A stretch of DNA of 64,000 bases from Synechococcus sp. HJ21-Hayes (GTDB taxonomy: Bacteria; Cyanobacteriota; Cyanobacteriia; PCC-6307; Cyanobiaceae): NCBI RefSeq assembly GCF_024345835.1, contig NZ_JAGQBW010000005.1, positions 1 through 64,000 of the forward strand. Direction: 5' to 3'. A program made the position numbers and the translations under genes. Positions 16,433 to 24,822 of this stretch are shown piece after piece. The notes under the pieces are model-generated. The model did not search any database. It was not told the DNA's origin and worked only from the letters and a program-made list of their open reading frames with translations. Positions within the stretch are counted from its first letter, which is position 1. Every line of letters begins with the position of its first letter.

Positions 16433-16849
16433 TCAGCCTACGCCACGGCTTGGGGTGATCAAACGCAGCCCGGGAAAGGCCTGGCGGTACCGGCGCTGAT
16501 CCCGCGTGAGCAGGGCGCAACGCTCAACCAGTGCATGGGCCCCGATCAGGAAATCGGGAAGAATCATGGCCCTGGTGCCTCCGCGTTCCCGATAGGCCGC
16601 ATGGGCTCGGGCCGCCAGGAACGAGGCTTCTCGAGGCATTGGGCGGTAGTCGTAGAGGTGGGGCGGCAGCAGCTCGTCCACGTCCTCAATGCGGTGGCAG
16701 GCGAAGGCGATTTCGCCATACACGATGGCGTTGATCAGAACGGGACCTGCATTCAGCCAGTGCATCAGCTGTGCGCTGCTCCAGTGGCCCCACTGCGGGT
16801 CGGCGGTGGCCACATCGAGGATCACGTTGGCATCCACGAACACCGTCAC
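16433..16849 (-). CDS. PIN-domain toxin, VapC-like
   Basis: 138-residue PIN-domain protein, a presumed metal-dependent RNase toxin. The first acidic residue is in MTVFVDANVILDV, the second in NAIVYGEIAFAC (Glu), and the third and fourth acidic sites are probably ILPDFLIGAHA and LLTRDQRRY, the usual PIN quartet pattern. The start is GTG at 16849. It overlaps the antitoxin stop by 4 nt (GTGA), giving translational coupling. Target RNA cannot be predicted. Confidence 0.85.
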   Translation of the reverse strand: MTVFVDANVILDVATADPQWGHWSSAQLMHWLNAGPVLINAIVYGEIAFACHRIEDVDELLPPHLYDYRPMPREASFLAARAHAAYRERGGTRAMILPDFLIGAHALVERCALLTRDQRRYRQAFPGLRLITPSRGVG

Positions 16850-17082
16850 ACGGCATCACCGCGGGTGAGCGCCAACAGCTCGTCGGTGCTGAGGTTGGTG
16901 CGCAGGCGGGCTCGGCGCAGGCGCTGCACGGCTTCTTCTCCCCGGCCGGGCTGATCAGGTTGTGGCTCCAGGAACACCCGTCCGTCCTCCTCCACGAACC
17001 GCACGGCGGTGTGGGGGAGGAGGCCGCAGCGCTCGCGAATGGCCAGGGGAATGGTCACCTGACCCTTGCTGGTGACCCGCAT
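16846..17082 (-). CDS. AbrB/MazE-type antitoxin, VapB-like
   Basis: 78-residue swapped-hairpin AbrB-family DNA-binding antitoxin: MRVTSKGQVTIPLAIRERCGL is the classic N-terminal beta-hairpin. The C-terminal half (GRGEEAVQRLRRARLRTN, then LSTDELLALTRGD) should wrap the PIN toxin. ATG 17082 was chosen because a GGGG lies 7 nt upstream. An ATG four codons earlier at 17094 has no RBS. A 13-nt inverted repeat at 17102-17114, just upstream, is a candidate autoregulatory operator. Confidence 0.85.
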   Translation of the reverse strand: MRVTSKGQVTIPLAIRERCGLLPHTAVRFVEEDGRVFLEPQPDQPGRGEEAVQRLRRARLRTNLSTDELLALTRGDAV

Positions 17083-17101
17083 CGAACACCCCATCGGCAG
17101 A

Positions 17102-17114
17102 GTAAGAATCTTAC
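17102..17114. promoter_or_regulatory. Inverted repeat, candidate vapB operator
   Basis: GTAAGA-A-TCTTAC, a perfect 6-bp inverted repeat around one base. It lies 20-32 nt upstream of the antitoxin ATG and contains the stop codon (17111-17113) of the upstream desaturase gene. AbrB-type antitoxins commonly bind such short palindromes to repress their own operon. Binding here is inferred. Confidence 0.45.
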
Positions 17115-18016
17115 CGAGGTCGGGTTCTCAGGGCTTCAGGCAGCCGCACCCTGGTGGCGAGGCCCAGGCGCTGCATCAGATGGATGTGCATCCAGGTGAG
17201 GTCGGGCTCGCGGCGGCCCCAGCCATGGCGCGCGGAGTGGGGGTAGGCGTGGTGGGTGTTGTGCCAGCCCTCGCCGAAGGTGAGAGCAGCCACCCAGGGG
17301 TTGTTGCGGGAGCCGTCACCGCTGTTGTGCAGCACGTAGCCCCAGCGGTGGGTGGCGGAATTCACCAGCCAGGTCACGTGGTACACGAGTGCCAGGCGCA
17401 GGGGGATCCCCCACAGCACAAGGGCCCAGCCGCCGGCGCCTGTGATGGTGCCGATCCAGAACAGCAGGCCGGCCAGGGGCAGTTGCAGGATCAGGAACCA
17501 CGTGTTCAGCCAGCGGTAGTAGGGGTCTGCGGCCAGATCGCCGCTCAGGCGGGGGATGGCCGCCGTGGCGGGCACCTTCTCGAGCATCCAGCCCATGTGG
17601 CTCCACCAGAAGCCGCGGTGACTGTTGTGGTGATCTGCATTCGTATCGGAAAACTTGTGGTGGTGGCGGTGCAGGCCCACCCAGTCGATCGGGCCCTGCT
17701 GGCAGCTGAGGGCACCGCAGGTGGCAAAGAAGCGCTCCAGCCAGCGTGGTAGCTGGAAGGCGCGGTGGCTGAGCAGGCGGTGATAGCCGATGGTCACGCC
17801 CAGGCAGGCGGTGACCCAATAGAGGATCAGCAGGCTGGCCGCGGCCGGCACGCTCCAGAACCTGGGTAGCAGAGCCACCAGGGCCAGGGCGTGGATGACG
17901 GCCATGAAGGCCACGATTCCCCAGTCGCGGCCTTGGGGTGCAGCAGGCAGCGCCGCGCCGGGTTGGCGGCGATGCAGGGCCCGGGCCCGGGCTGGGGCGG
18001 TGATCGAGGCCGTCAT
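17111..18016 (-). CDS. Acyl-lipid/acyl-CoA Delta-9-type fatty acid desaturase (copy 1)
   Basis: 301-residue membrane di-iron desaturase, DesC-like, which introduces the first double bond into membrane acyl chains. The three histidine boxes are HRLLSH, HRHHH (GLHRHHHKFSD) and HNTHH (EGWHNTHHAYP), with hydrophobic segments between. ATG 18016. Divergent from an HTH-like gene with 53 nt between starts, holding a 12-bp palindrome. The stop codon sits inside the inverted repeat that precedes the VapB-like gene. Confidence 0.93.
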   Translation of the reverse strand: MTASITAPARARALHRRQPGAALPAAPQGRDWGIVAFMAVIHALALVALLPRFWSVPAAASLLILYWVTACLGVTIGYHRLLSHRAFQLPRWLERFFATCGALSCQQGPIDWVGLHRHHHKFSDTNADHHNSHRGFWWSHMGWMLEKVPATAAIPRLSGDLAADPYYRWLNTWFLILQLPLAGLLFWIGTITGAGGWALVLWGIPLRLALVYHVTWLVNSATHRWGYVLHNSGDGSRNNPWVAALTFGEGWHNTHHAYPHSARHGWGRREPDLTWMHIHLMQRLGLATRVRLPEALRTRPR

Positions 18017-18053
18017 GGGCCTGCTCCATCGGTTTCCGATAAAATGGTAGCAG

Positions 18054-18065
18054 TACGGATCCGTA
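18054..18065. promoter_or_regulatory. 12-bp perfect palindrome between desaturase and HTH gene
   Basis: TACGGATCCGTA is its own reverse complement. It lies 5 nt before the GTG of the rightward regulator-like gene and 38 nt before the desaturase ATG. A -10-like TAAAAT (18040-18045) precedes it for the rightward gene. On the other strand TTGATA overlaps its edge with CATTTT 17 nt further on. This is a plausible shared operator. Confidence 0.5.
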
Positions 18066-18069
18066 TCAA

Positions 18070-18858
18070 GTGCAATATCGGGATGAACTCGAAGCGGGCC
18101 GGGATGCGTTCGGGCACCTGATCAGGGTTTGGCACGAGCGCAACGGCTGGAGTCAGCGGGTGCTGCCGGCCCTGGCCGAGCGGCTGGAGCTGGGCCGGGT
18201 TCACAACTCCCAGCTCTCTAACCTGCGCAACCGCAAGCTGGCCTCCCCGGGCCCCGAGCTGTTTGTGGCGTTGGGGCGCATCAATCAGATGTTGGCGCAG
18301 GAGGGTGGTGTCGAGGGGCCCTCGCCCCAGCTCGCCGGGCAGTTGGCCGATCAGCCCGAGCTGCTCTCAGCGCTCCAGGTCTCCGCCTTGCCCCTGCTGG
18401 CGGATAACGGCCAGCCGCTGGGGCCAGCCCAGCTGTTTGAGATCTTCGTGGGCCTGCGCCAGCCCCCCAGCGCCTTCGATCTGCGCATTGCCGAGGCTGA
18501 GGCCGCGGGCTTGAGTGCCGCTCTGGCGGAGCTGTTCACGGCGGGGCGGCCGTGGCGCAGCTGCCGGGACCAGTTGCTGGAGGCCTATCCCGCCGAGAAA
18601 CGCCAGCGCCGTGAGCGGTTTGCCGAGGTGATGGCGGGCCAGCGCGACTACACGGCCGCCGAGTTGGACGGGGAACTGGCGGATCTGCGGCGCACCCTGG
18701 CGGTGCTGGGGGCCGCCGATGAACAGGCTCTCAGCGCCGACCAGTTCCTGGAGTTGCTGCGCCAAAAAGCCCGTCAGCATCAGCGGCCGGGCGGCGGTGG
18801 TGATCGCGATGATCTGGGGGAGGCGATCCGGCGGGAATTAGGCCGTCAGCCCGGATAA
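18070..18858 (+). CDS. HTH-like putative transcriptional regulator (262 aa)
   Basis: From GTG 18070. Residues about 15-70 (HLIRVWHERNGWSQRVLPALAE, then RVHNSQLSNLRNRKLASPGPELFVALGRIN) look like an XRE-type or related helix-turn-helix, with the second half 'NSQLSNLRNRKL' as the recognition helix. The rest is all-helical with no recognised fold (FEIFVGLRQPP, AELDGELADLRRTLAVLG) and could be a ligand or oligomerisation domain. It lies between two desaturase genes, divergent from one and convergent (13-nt overlap) with the other, so control of lipid unsaturation is an attractive but unproven role. Confidence 0.65.
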   Translation: MQYRDELEAGRDAFGHLIRVWHERNGWSQRVLPALAERLELGRVHNSQLSNLRNRKLASPGPELFVALGRINQMLAQEGGVEGPSPQLAGQLADQPELLSALQVSALPLLADNGQPLGPAQLFEIFVGLRQPPSAFDLRIAEAEAAGLSAALAELFTAGRPWRSCRDQLLEAYPAEKRQRRERFAEVMAGQRDYTAAELDGELADLRRTLAVLGAADEQALSADQFLELLRQKARQHQRPGGGGDRDDLGEAIRRELGRQPG

Positions 18859-19892
18859 CGGGCTTCGCGAATGCGCTTGGCCCAGCCGAGGCTGCGCAGC
18901 AGCTTGATGTGTTGCCAGGTGATGTCGAACTCGAACCAGCGCAGGCCGTGGCGGGCGCTGGAGGGGTGGGCGTGGTGGTTGTTGTGCCAGCCCTCGCCGA
19001 AGCTCAGGATCGCCACCCACCAGCAGTTGCGGGAGAGATCCGGGCAGTCGAAATTGCGGTAGCCGAACGCGTGGGTGGCGGAGTTCACCAGCCAGGTCAC
19101 GTGGTACACGAGCACCAGACGCAGGGGAATCGCCCACAGCACCAGGCCCAGGCCACCGCCATGCACCTGGGCGGCGTTGCCGTACCAGTACAGACCCAAA
19201 CCGAGGGGAAGCTGCAGCAGCAGGAACCAGCGGTCCAGCCAGCGATAGAGAGGGTCCTGGAGCATGTCGCCGGAGAAGCGATGCAGCTCCTTGAGGGCGG
19301 GGATCTCGTGCAGCATCCACTCGCTGTGGGCCCACCACAGCCCGCGGGCCGCGTCGTGGTGGTCGTTGGGCTGGTCGGAGAACTTGTGGTGATGGCGGTG
19401 CAGGCCCACCCACTCGATCGGACCGCTCTGGCAGGCCAGGGTGCCCATCAACACCAGCAGGCGTTCCACCCACTTGGGGGCCACGAAACTGCGGTGCGAC
19501 ACCAGCCGATGCAGGCCCAGGGTGACTCCCAGCACCGTCATCCAATAAAGCAGCGCCAGGGCGGCCACAGCCTGCCAGCTCCAGAACTGCGGCAGCAGGG
19601 CAAACACCGCCCCCACGTGCATCACCAGCATGAAGCCGGTGGTGCCGAGCTTCAGCTTCCGCTGACTGGGGGGCAGGGGCGCTCGGGGCACCACCAGGGC
19701 GGCGCGCATGCGCGCTTCCTGGGCTGCCGTCAGCCCTGCGCTGCTGCCTTCGGTGGCGCCGTCGTTGCCCGTTGCCGGACGGTTGGAGCGGGCTGCCGAA
19801 GCGGCATCTGGAGCAACGACCAATGTGATCTCCTGAAGGATGCGCAGGCTCTGGTTCGCTGGGGTGTCCCCTGGAGGGGGACTGCGCACCAC
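18846..19892 (-). CDS. Acyl-lipid/acyl-CoA Delta-9-type fatty acid desaturase (copy 2)
   Basis: Up to 348 residues. A second DesC-like membrane desaturase with His boxes HRLVSH, HRHHH (GLHRHHHKFSD) and HNNHH (EGWHNNHHAHP). It is clearly paralogous to copy 1 over the core (VYHVTWLVNSATH is shared). The N-terminal 60-70 residues before RKLKLGTTGFMLVMHV are not conserved with copy 1, and the true start could be one of several GTG/ATG codons downstream of the GTG at 19892. Its 3' end overlaps the convergent HTH gene by 13 nt. Confidence 0.9.
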   Translation of the reverse strand: MVRSPPPGDTPANQSLRILQEITLVVAPDAASAARSNRPATGNDGATEGSSAGLTAAQEARMRAALVVPRAPLPPSQRKLKLGTTGFMLVMHVGAVFALLPQFWSWQAVAALALLYWMTVLGVTLGLHRLVSHRSFVAPKWVERLLVLMGTLACQSGPIEWVGLHRHHHKFSDQPNDHHDAARGLWWAHSEWMLHEIPALKELHRFSGDMLQDPLYRWLDRWFLLLQLPLGLGLYWYGNAAQVHGGGLGLVLWAIPLRLVLVYHVTWLVNSATHAFGYRNFDCPDLSRNCWWVAILSFGEGWHNNHHAHPSSARHGLRWFEFDITWQHIKLLRSLGWAKRIREARYPG

Positions 19893-21882: not shown

Positions 21883-24822
21883 GTGTCCGCAACGGTGCCG
21901 CTGGATGGATTCCTGATGCGGCACATCGGCCCCTCCCCTGGGGAGCAGGCCCGCATGCTTCAGGATCTAGGAGCGCCCGATCTGGATCAGTTTCTGGCGG
22001 AGGTGGTGCCCGCCGGGATCCTGTTGGAGGCTGCCACGGCGACGGCCGGATTGCCGGAGGGCTGCAGTGAGGCCCAGGCTCTGGCTGAGCTCCAGCAGAT
22101 CGCCAGTGCCAACCAGGTGCGCCGCAGCCTGATTGGGCTCGGCTATTACGGCACCGTGACGCCGGCGTTGCTGCAGCGCCATGTGTTCGAGAACCCTGCC
22201 TGGTATACGGCCTACACCCCTTATCAGGCCGAGATCGCCCAGGGGCGCCTCGAGGCGTTGCTCAATTTCCAGACCCTGATCAGCGAGCTCACTGGCCTGC
22301 CGATCGCCAATGCCTCGCTGCTGGATGAGGGCACGGCGGCTGCCGAGGCCATGAGCCTCAGTTTTGGGGCCTGCCGCGATGGCGCAGCCCGCCGCTTTCT
22401 GGTGGATGCCGATGTGTTTCCCCAAACCTGGGCGGTGCTGCAAACCCGGGCCGAGCCCCTCGGCATTGCGCTGGAGCGGGTGGATCCCAGTGCGCTGCTC
22501 GCCCAGGTGGAGGCGGGTGGCCAACCCTTTGCGGGCTGCTTTGGCCTGCTGCTGCAACTGCCTGGGGCCAGCGGTCGCCTCTGGAATCCCGCGGCGTTGA
22601 TCGCCGCCGCCCAAGCGGCCGGTGCCCTGGTCACGGCGGCGGTGGATCCCCTGGCCCAGGTGCTGATGGCGCCTGTAGGGGCCTTGGGCGTAGAGATCGC
22701 CGTGGGCAGCACCCAGCGCTTCGGCATCCCCATGGGGTTCGGCGGACCCCATGCCGCCTTTTTTGCCACCACCGAGGCTCATAAGCGCCAGATTCCCGGG
22801 CGCCTGGTGGGGCAGTCCGTGGATGTGGAGGGCCAACCGGCCTTGCGGCTGGCCCTCCAGACCCGTGAGCAGCACATCCGCCGCGACAAGGCCACCAGCA
22901 ACATCTGCACGGCCCAGGTGCTGCTCGCCGTGATGGCGGGGTTCTACGCCGTGCACCATGGCCCGGAGGGCCTGGCGGCCATTGCCCGGCGCTTGCTGCG
23001 CCTGCGCTCCGCCTTGGCCCTGGGCCTAGAGCTGCTGGGCCTGCCCCCGCGCCGTGAGCCGGGGCTCGACACCCTCAGCCTGGATCTGGCTCCAGCCCAG
23101 CGGGACGCCGTGCTGGAGCGCGCGGAAGCGGCCGGGTTCAACCTGCGCCGTGATCCCGCCGGCTGCGGCATCAGCCTCGATGAGCTCACGGATGGGCCGG
23201 AACTGGATCGCCTGCTAGCGGCCCTGGCGGGGCCCGGGCAGCCCGTGCCCGCTGCGGCCGAGCTGCTGGCGCGGGTGGATCAGGCGCCGCTGGCGGAGCA
23301 GGGCTGGGCTGGCGCTGGCCTCCCCCTGCGCGATGGCCCCTGGCTCACCCAGGAGGTGTTCCACCGCTATCGCAGTGAAACCGAATTGCTGCGCTACATC
23401 CAGCGGCTCGTGTCGCGGGATTTCTCCCTGGTGCACGGGATGATCCCCCTGGGTAGCTGCACCATGAAGCTGAATGCCGCCGCTGAGCTGCTGCCGGTGA
23501 GCTGGCCGGCCTTCGCGGGCCTGCACCCCTTTGCGCCCGAGGCCCAGACCGCCGGCTACCGCCGTCTGCTGAACGATCTCGAGCAGTGGCTGGCGGCGAT
23601 CACCGGGTTTGCCGGTGTGTCCCTGCAGCCCAATGCCGGCTCCCAGGGCGAATATGCCGGCCTGTTGGTGATCCGTGCCTTCCACCGCAGCCGCGGTGAG
23701 GGGCATCGCCAGGTGTGCCTGATTCCCACCAGTGCCCATGGCACTAACCCGGCCAGCGCGGTGATGGCAGGCCTCACGGTGGTCCCCGTGGCCTGCGACG
23801 CCCAGGGCAACATCGATCGTGCCGATCTGGCGGCCAAGGCCGAGGCCCATGCTGATCAGCTGGCGGCCCTGATGGTGACCTATCCCTCCACCCACGGGGT
23901 GTTCGAGGCCGGCATCGAGGAGATTTGTGCCCTCGTGCACCGCCACGGCGGCCAGGTGTACCTCGATGGCGCCAACCTCAACGCCCAGGTGGGTCTGTGC
24001 CAACCCGGCCGCTATGGGGCCGATGTGTGCCACCTCAACCTGCACAAGACCTTCTGCATCCCCCACGGCGGCGGTGGCCCCGGGGTGGGCCCCATTGCTG
24101 TGGCGGAACATCTGGTGCCCTTCCTGCCCGGCCATCCGTTGGCCCCTGGCAGCGGAGCCCAGGCCATCGGCCCGGTGAGTGCCGCCCCCTGGGGGAGTGC
24201 TTCGATCCTGCCGATCAGCTGGATGTACATCCGCATGATGGGTGGGGCCGGCTTACGCCAGGCCAGTGCCGTGGCCTTGCTGGCCGCCAACTGGATCGCC
24301 GAGCGGCTGGAGCCCCATTTCCCGGTGCTCTATCGCGGTGCTAGCGGCCGCGTGGCCCACGAGTGCATCCTCGATCTGCGGCCGCTCAAGCGCAGCTGTG
24401 GCCTGGAGGTGGACGATCTAGCCAAGCGCCTCATGGACTACGGCTTCCATGCCCCCACCGTGAGCTGGCCCGTGGCGGGCACGGTGATGGTGGAGCCCAC
24501 CGAGAGCGAGGCCTTGCCGGAACTGGAGCGTTTCTGCGACGCCATGGTGGCCATCCGGGCGGAGGCGGCCGCGATTGAATCCGGCCGCAGTGACCACCTC
24601 GACAACCCGCTCAAGCGTGCCCCGCACACCTTGGCGGCCCTCACGGCCGACGACTGGTCGCGCGGCTACAGCCGCCAGCAGGCGGCATTCCCCGCCGGCC
24701 CGCAGCAGCAGGCCCAGAAGGTGTGGCCCGCCGTGGCCCGGATCGACAACGCCTTTGGCGATCGCCATCTGGTGTGCACCTGCCCATCGGTGCAGGAGTT
24801 GGCGGGCGTCACGGCGGCCTGA
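21883..24822 (+). CDS. gcvP: Glycine dehydrogenase (decarboxylating), P protein
   Basis: 979-residue single-chain P protein, the PLP enzyme that decarboxylates glycine and loads the H protein. It starts with GTG 21883, and the expected N-terminus [17 protein letters not shown] follows. The PLP lysine is in [18 protein letters not shown] (about residue 721), after the glycine-rich and [10 protein letters not shown] segments. Full length for the family. It is adjacent to gcvH. gcvT is not in the window. Confidence 0.97.

Follow-up and report, generated by a model that had tools for sequence, protein, structure and literature searches.

The stretch analysed here, referred to below as the window, comprises the first 64,000 nucleotides (nt) of contig NZ_JAGQBW010000005.1 of the cyanobacterium Synechococcus sp. 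HJ21-Hayes, and it contains a fatty-acid desaturase gene (des1) that is separated by a short gap from a divergently transcribed gene for a protein with a predicted helix-turn-helix (HTH) domain. It is quite likely that the HTH protein acts locally, as a one-component DNA-binding regulator dedicated to des1, which is probably desC4, and to its own gene, most likely repressing both through a palindromic operator (O1) in the gap between them. Since the HTH gene and the palindrome are kept beside des1 in most genomes of the family, the protein is the probable switch of this desaturase. The regulator-target arrangement is itself classic; what is new, judged from comparative sequence data, is an undescribed family of putative regulators that is fixed, together with a predicted operator, to one desaturase across most of the picocyanobacteria searched, and, likely, a second operator hidden in the codons beside a histidine box of the same desaturase.

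The des1 gene (17111-18016, minus strand, ATG at 18016) is an open reading frame (ORF) of 301 amino acids whose product matches PF00487 (E 2.7e-19), and three histidine boxes (HRLLSH, HRHHH and HNTHH) can be read directly in its translation. With this family match and the three boxes it is, by its sequence features and leaving regiospecificity aside, an acyl-lipid delta-9 desaturase (DesC). The HTH gene is an ORF at 18070-18858 on the plus strand, with a GTG start at 18070 and 262 amino acids, and the divergent gap between the two genes (18017-18069) measures 53 nt. An earlier note on this DNA had described a perfect palindrome of 12 base pairs (bp), TACGGATCCGTA, at 18054-18065 inside the gap and had taken it as the regulatory element; its coordinates and symmetry were confirmed, and the palindrome is real, but the conserved element is actually 16 bp long. 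This predicted main operator, O1 (AGTACGGATCCGTATC, 18052-18067, no strand assigned), encloses the 12-bp palindrome and was delimited by a family motif and a de novo motif.

The 12-mer has one exact copy in the window and two places at up to two mismatches (shuffle mean 0.44; 5 of 100 shuffles reach 2), and genome-wide it has one exact and one further place at one mismatch, which is the same total as for a reversed-pattern control. As its rarity equals that of the control, what makes the 12-mer stand out statistically is not its occurrence in a single genome but its conservation. Among 22 orthologous loci of the same genus, including the window's own, 21 span the gap, and 17 of these 21, the window's own counted, contain the exact 12-mer. 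The earlier note had named lack of conservation of the palindrome beside orthologous gene pairs as what would refute its proposal; TACG-N4-CGTA was found in all 21 loci, with variation confined to the four central bases, and the proposal passed this test. Beyond this genus O1 frequently has GATA...TATC as its outer bases, examples being GATACGGATCCGTATC (G348, L165) and GATAAGGATCCTAATC (Prochlorococcus), whereas the left half in the window reads AGTACG.

For motif analysis, one locus was taken from each of 33 clusters defined at 72% identity of the HTH protein. The first choice of sites had used a palindromic consensus, and for this reason a run free of that constraint matters: a de novo motif sampler without palindrome constraint returned GATAAGGATCCATATC, a motif that correlates with its own reverse complement in register (r = 0.94) and loses the correlation when slid by 1-4 bases (-0.29 to -0.02), and its sites agree with the consensus-chosen sites in 30 of 33 clusters. 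When each cluster was left out of motif building in turn, 30 of the 33 had the best place of the whole locus within the des1-HTH region, compared with 1.6 expected. With a motif built from those same loci, 132 of 133 have an O1 that scores above 99% of shuffled gaps. Across the HTH-bearing loci the O1 scores never fall below 7.8, with 11.8 as the 5th percentile and 20.3 as the median, compared with 9.2 for the 99th percentile of shuffles, and O1 of the window scores 19.5 with the family motif.

The association of the two genes was followed at several taxonomic depths. A search of 40 relatives with the HTH protein gave a match in 23, one of which (G004) was a weak paralogue only; the 15 genomes in this set that represent other families of the class gave none. 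Within the family, an HTH profile matched 333 of 400 genomes and 54 of 59 genera at E<=0.001. A scan of named genomes, from which the best 80 of 334 relatives were kept (Synechococcus, Cyanobium, Vulcanococcus, Prochlorococcus and others), had des1 divergently upstream of the HTH gene in all 80 loci, and in a set of 134 HTH loci des1 lies divergently beside the HTH gene in 133, the remaining locus, L021, ending at a contig edge before the gap and being dropped. These 134 loci count some genomes twice (e.g. L002 and L033), and cluster representatives were used for the main tests. Co-occurrence was then scored in 178 family genomes (at least 99% complete, plus the window's own), with thresholds of E<=1e-112 for des1, which lies between des1 and des2-like values, and E<=1e-40 for the HTH protein. 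The desaturase gene is present in 161 and the HTH protein in 159 of the 178 genomes; both genes occur in 159, des1 only in 2 (G126 and G267), the HTH gene only in 0, and neither in 17. An apparent split over two contigs in G218 is an assembly break, given that its HTH contig ends inside des1. Among loci of the genus that accounts for 16 of the 17 double losses, L170, L171, L175 and L176 lack both des1 and the HTH gene and have rplI and des2 (the genes that normally flank the pair) 80-96 nt apart, as in a clean joint loss; in L173, from the same genus and also without des1, no rplI lies within the stretch covered.

Loci that have lost the HTH gene serve as natural controls. Three of them keep des1 together with its upstream DNA; a fourth, L168 (G004), was dropped as it holds a des1 fragment without upstream DNA. 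In G126 (L167) and G267 (L204) the HTH gene alone is missing, and there is no operator-like remnant (best scores -4.3 and -3.2); in G063 (L169) the highest value, 7.4, falls on another word, and a half-site, GATAAGGAT, can be seen by eye near 2456. O1 is thus gone or broken in all three HTH-less loci, and the predicted operator decays once the putative regulator is lost even though des1 stays. G126 and G267 belong to the same genus, so that this decay amounts to about two independent cases. Sharing a conserved site and being kept or lost together, des1 and the HTH gene are, by these comparative data, a divergent local regulator-target pair with a shared palindrome, and the earlier proposal of such a pair is supported by the family-wide conservation, the co-occurrence and the loss of the site in HTH-less loci.

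A regulon search of 22 further genomes with a degenerate 16-mer (at most one mismatch) found a match in 17, of which 14, including all four with exact matches, have one in the des1-HTH gap. In G055 and G115 the only place lies outside the gap, and G090 has one inside des1, at the second site described below, and one elsewhere. Scattered one-mismatch places number 11, equal to the reversed-pattern control (11), and among seven of these 11 places plus the one-mismatch place of the window's own genome no gene was found in common (E<=1e-5) and no desaturase among the ORFs. Given that the exact matches all lie in the gap, that the scattered places equal the control and that no gene is common to them, the regulator looks dedicated to one place. 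Separately, L099, L135, L145, L148, L149, L151 and L164 have a second operator-like 16-mer in or near the gap, 29-85 bp from O1. Lone operator-like 16-mers occur at position 3188 of L159 (18.7) and position 37 of L111 (17.7), and the third and fourth motif places of the window lie at 21979 (15.1) and 51116 (13.1); these may be due to chance.

The second-best motif match of the window (score 17.4) lies inside des1, at 17632-17647 (no strand assigned). This candidate second operator, O2 (GATCTGCATTCGTATC), reads GAT ACG AAT GCA GAT C on the coding strand, encoding D-T-N-A-D beside the second histidine box, with codons that are uncommon for a gene with 68% guanine plus cytosine (GC). Its centre is 420 bp from that of O1, the distance ranging from 378 to 528 bp across lineages. 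Although O2 took no part in motif building, it was noticed after inspection of the scan and had not been predicted beforehand. We examined its codons in 46 GC-rich des1 clusters (90% identity) against a synonymous-codon null, which O2 exceeded in 28 clusters at p<=0.05 and in 17 at p<=0.01. In 30 of the 46 clusters no other word in des1 matches the operator better than the one at O2. In view of these results, O2 is a probable second operator in many GC-rich lineages, including that of the window.

The competing explanation is that O2 is no operator and that GAT-ACG-GAT at histidine box 2 results from translation pausing, RNA structure or inheritance. The amino acids D-T-D-x-D alone permit an operator-like word, and none of the 37 loci under 50% GC exceeds the synonymous-codon null at O2. 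In addition, 14 of the 46 GC-rich clusters carry GAC-ACC codons in place of O2, HTH-less G126 retains O2 (18.0), the O1-O2 spacing shows no helical phasing (Rayleigh R 0.17, n = 25), the spacing or strength of O2 has no link with the strength of O1 (rho -0.09, p 0.55), and the discovery was post hoc. Against this, the codons switch as a block, with 30 clusters having GAT-ACG-GAT, 10 GAC-ACC-GAC, 4 GAC-ACC-GAT and 2 a mixture, and they are used more often than at other columns: GAT makes up 70% and 78% at the two O2 aspartate columns versus 7-44% at other conserved aspartate columns, and ACG 65% at the O2 threonine codon versus 0-55% elsewhere. Strong operator-like words also cluster at O1 and O2 and almost nowhere else, since in 68 representative loci 72 places scoring at least 12 lie within 100 bases of O1 and 30 at -600 to -301, leaving six in the remaining listed bins plus one beyond. 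The O2 position scores only 4.0 and 1.9 in HTH-less G267 and G063, and the same place at histidine box 2 of des2 averages -13 (21 loci, none above -0.2) and is not operator-like; L005, L036 and L103, in which no histidine-box word was found, dropped out of this scoring. None of seven desaturase motifs from other cyanobacterial families is operator-like at the O2 place, a control weakened by their differing amino acids. Taken together, a non-operator origin of these codons is a possibility to be taken seriously, yet the less probable of the two accounts.

The earlier note had found the C-terminal 190 residues of the HTH protein to match nothing recognisable, and indeed searches of Pfam, NCBIfam and PHROG gave no family for the protein of the window at E<=1. 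An AlphaFold2 model is nearly all helical (mean predicted local distance difference test score, pLDDT, 85; predicted template modelling score 0.65). Its N-terminal part (about residues 1-80) aligns with SinR, C.BclI and DdrO over 68-75 residues (VIA-align Z 5.5-6.5, root-mean-square deviation 2.4-2.8), and the best VIA-align rows for the protein are nearly all XRE proteins. The N-terminus therefore looks, in the model, like an XRE-type HTH, followed by a helical region without a match among the family models searched. Given that the curated cut-offs of HTH_3 and HTH_31 are not passed, the protein is called XRE-like rather than a listed member. Modelled alone, the C-terminal part reaches a pLDDT of 80. 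Foldseek searches of PDB and viral models with it gave nothing at E<=0.001, a result that is no proof of a new fold, and a profile search of solved structures gave one chance-level hit. As a separate observation, residues 139-239 (18484-18786 in the window), modelled alone, align best with the XRE controller C.Esp1396I (Z 6.0, 76 residues, root-mean-square deviation 3.2). This alignment would make the protein a tandem HTH, an arrangement that found no sequence support (hhalign probability at most about 0.5%, Smith-Waterman shuffle mean z 0.18).

Weaker relatives of the HTH protein, with 26-37% identity, occur in its own genome and in others. Five of them (L026, L027, L028, L030 and L024) have 26-34% identity to it: L030 lies beside a VRR-NUC gene (by Pfam), L027 beside a similar ORF (by eye), and L026 adjoins a helicase C-terminal domain; neither a VRR-NUC nor a helicase neighbour is present at L028 and L024, and a similar ORF of about 240-255 amino acids is found near L027, L028 and L030. 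A mobile element may have been the source of the desaturase regulator.

A generic promoter scan of 16500-19500 found no sigma-70-like site, and the promoter calls consequently rest on conserved spacing relative to O1, which was counted after leaving out 6 of 68 loci whose O1 matches under 11 of 16 positions. The TAAAAT box noticed earlier upstream of the HTH gene is present at 18040-18045 (plus strand) and is its predicted -10 element, a TANN[AT]T being found at the fixed offset in 37 of 43 GC-rich loci. For des1, an extended -10 element is predicted at 18052 down to 18044 on the minus strand (TGCTACCAT), overlapping both the HTH -10 and the edge of O1; among the 43 GC-rich representatives, TANN[AT]T occurs at a fixed offset to O1 in 39 and TGn directly upstream of it in 40. 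The earlier note had suggested that the palindrome overlaps a -35 and spacer of des1; the palindrome lies upstream of this candidate extended -10, and no convincing -35 was found. From these positions we infer an HTH start site near 18052, so that O1 would span about +1 to +16 of the HTH transcript.

With O1 over the HTH transcript start and just upstream of the des1 -10, a bound protein would block both genes. In the mechanism we propose, a dimer of the HTH protein would bind O1 and exclude RNA polymerase from both promoters, which would result in repression of des1 and in autorepression. The releasing signal might for example be cold or an altered state of the membrane or its acyl lipids, perhaps read by the C-terminal part, and in many GC-rich lineages O2 would probably strengthen repression by looping or as a roadblock.

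An alternative is that the protein represses its own gene and activates des1, with O1 in the spacer of the des1 promoter, a MerR-like position from which binding would re-align a poor promoter. No -35 is visible for des1, the centre of O1 would be about 22 bp upstream of its predicted start site, the genes stay together, and the two genomes that retain des1 without the HTH gene have an altered upstream region, all of which an activator would accommodate. However, the fold matches are XRE repressors and controllers and not MerR, the des1 -10 looks extended and extended -10 promoters need no -35, and O1 would cover the HTH start site, which is the classic position for autorepression; activation of des1 is therefore unlikely. 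Least probable is a plain autorepressor with O1 private to the HTH gene and des1 a mere fixed neighbour. In its favour, O1 lies over the predicted HTH start site, some relatives adjoin VRR-NUC or helicase genes as might be expected of self-controlling mobile-element regulators, and a site that disappears once the HTH gene has gone is predicted by this reading too. Against it, the HTH gene is not found without des1 in the 178 genomes, O1 is also at the predicted des1 promoter and O2 lies within the des1 coding sequence.

Several observations weigh against repression of both genes by the HTH protein through O1. Sixteen of the 17 double losses fall in one genus, so that independent losses are few, and the leave-one-out motif misses 3 of 33 clusters (L057, L149 and L157). 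Both -10 boxes are predicted elements with irregular spacing in 19 AT-rich loci, where the best offset is shared by 9 and 8 loci for the two promoters. For the protein, sequence support for an HTH is weak, with HTH_3 reported in 3 of 30 orthologues (best E 0.024), HTH_31 in 2 of 30 (0.096) and Myb_DNA-binding_2 in 4 of 30 (0.022); the VIA-align Z values reach 6.5 at most, where the tool advises caution below 8, and a Foldseek search with the model gave no match at E<=0.001. Finally, in a study of strain WH5701, whose locus in our set is L062, desC4 is up at high salinity and the cold-induced desaturase genes are desC6 and desA4 (PMC12834511).

The identification of des1 as desC4 is probable and is a match by distribution only: des1 is missing in 17 of the 178 genomes, 16 of them in one genus, a desC4-like pattern. 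According to one report, desC4 (Cyanorak CK_00008117) is present in 47 of 48 isolates from fresh water and in every brackish one and is absent from 22 of 48 marine strains, in clades II, III, WPC1, XX and UC-A (PMC9361551). Another describes desC4 as absent from warm thermotypes, and DesC4 of WH7803 as showing strong differential expression both at low temperature and under other stresses (PMC7393227), and a third reports that desaturases are upregulated in the cold in Prochlorococcus MIT9301 (PMC10294614). Among the matches listed in open-licence literature, no desC4 regulator was found named in the titles and opening lines of abstracts.

Comparison with known systems places the proposed regulator more precisely. 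Like the XRE/cro-C1 repressors (SinR, DdrO) and controllers (C.BclI, C.Esp1396I), the HTH protein appears to have an N-terminal HTH of about 75 residues and, as is generally known of operators in this class, a palindromic operator over the predicted start site of its own gene. It differs in falling below the Pfam cut-offs, in having an extra, mostly helical region of about 180 residues without a family model, and in staying beside a single metabolic gene throughout most of a bacterial family. The lac system has its operator O1 at the promoter and O2 inside lacZ about 400 bp downstream, and the layout here is alike in combining a promoter operator with an operator-like site inside the target gene, 420 bp apart; the protein is a different one, O2 is absent in some lineages, and the 378-528 bp that a putative loop would span show no helical phasing. 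Known controls of desaturases include Hik33 in Synechocystis, DesK-DesR in Bacillus and DesT in Pseudomonas. As in these systems, the HTH protein would adjust membrane unsaturation to conditions, but it would do so as a one-component XRE-like protein encoded divergently from what is apparently its only target.

Cold and warm ecotypes of very abundant ocean phototrophs differ in the content and expression of their desaturases, for which the present analysis supplies a candidate regulator, an operator predicted to the base and lineages without the regulator as natural controls. If the O2 reading is true, a synonymous change at O2 should alter expression. A more speculative extension, which we consider rather doubtful, is that a one-component repressor of an undescribed family governs membrane unsaturation in picocyanobacteria, including the streamlined Prochlorococcus, from O1 and, in many lineages, through a loop between O1 and O2. 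The C-terminal part of this repressor, which might be another XRE-like fold, would sense temperature or a lipid directly. Were such looped repression true, joint loss of repressor and desaturase would have been a step of some marine Synechococcus lineages toward warm water.

With regard to the wider neighbourhood, the usual gene order in the family is rplI, des1, HTH gene, des2 and next gene. A second desaturase gene, des2 (18846-19892, minus strand, PF00487), is convergent with the HTH gene and overlaps its end. Between rplI and des1 the window contains two minus-strand genes that overlap by 4 nt (16433-16849 and 16846-17094), of which one encodes a PIN domain and the other is AbrB/MazE-like, and which look like a VapBC-type toxin-antitoxin pair inserted there; in L007, L199 and L205, which are without the PIN/AbrB pair, rplI and des1 are about 40-60 nt apart.

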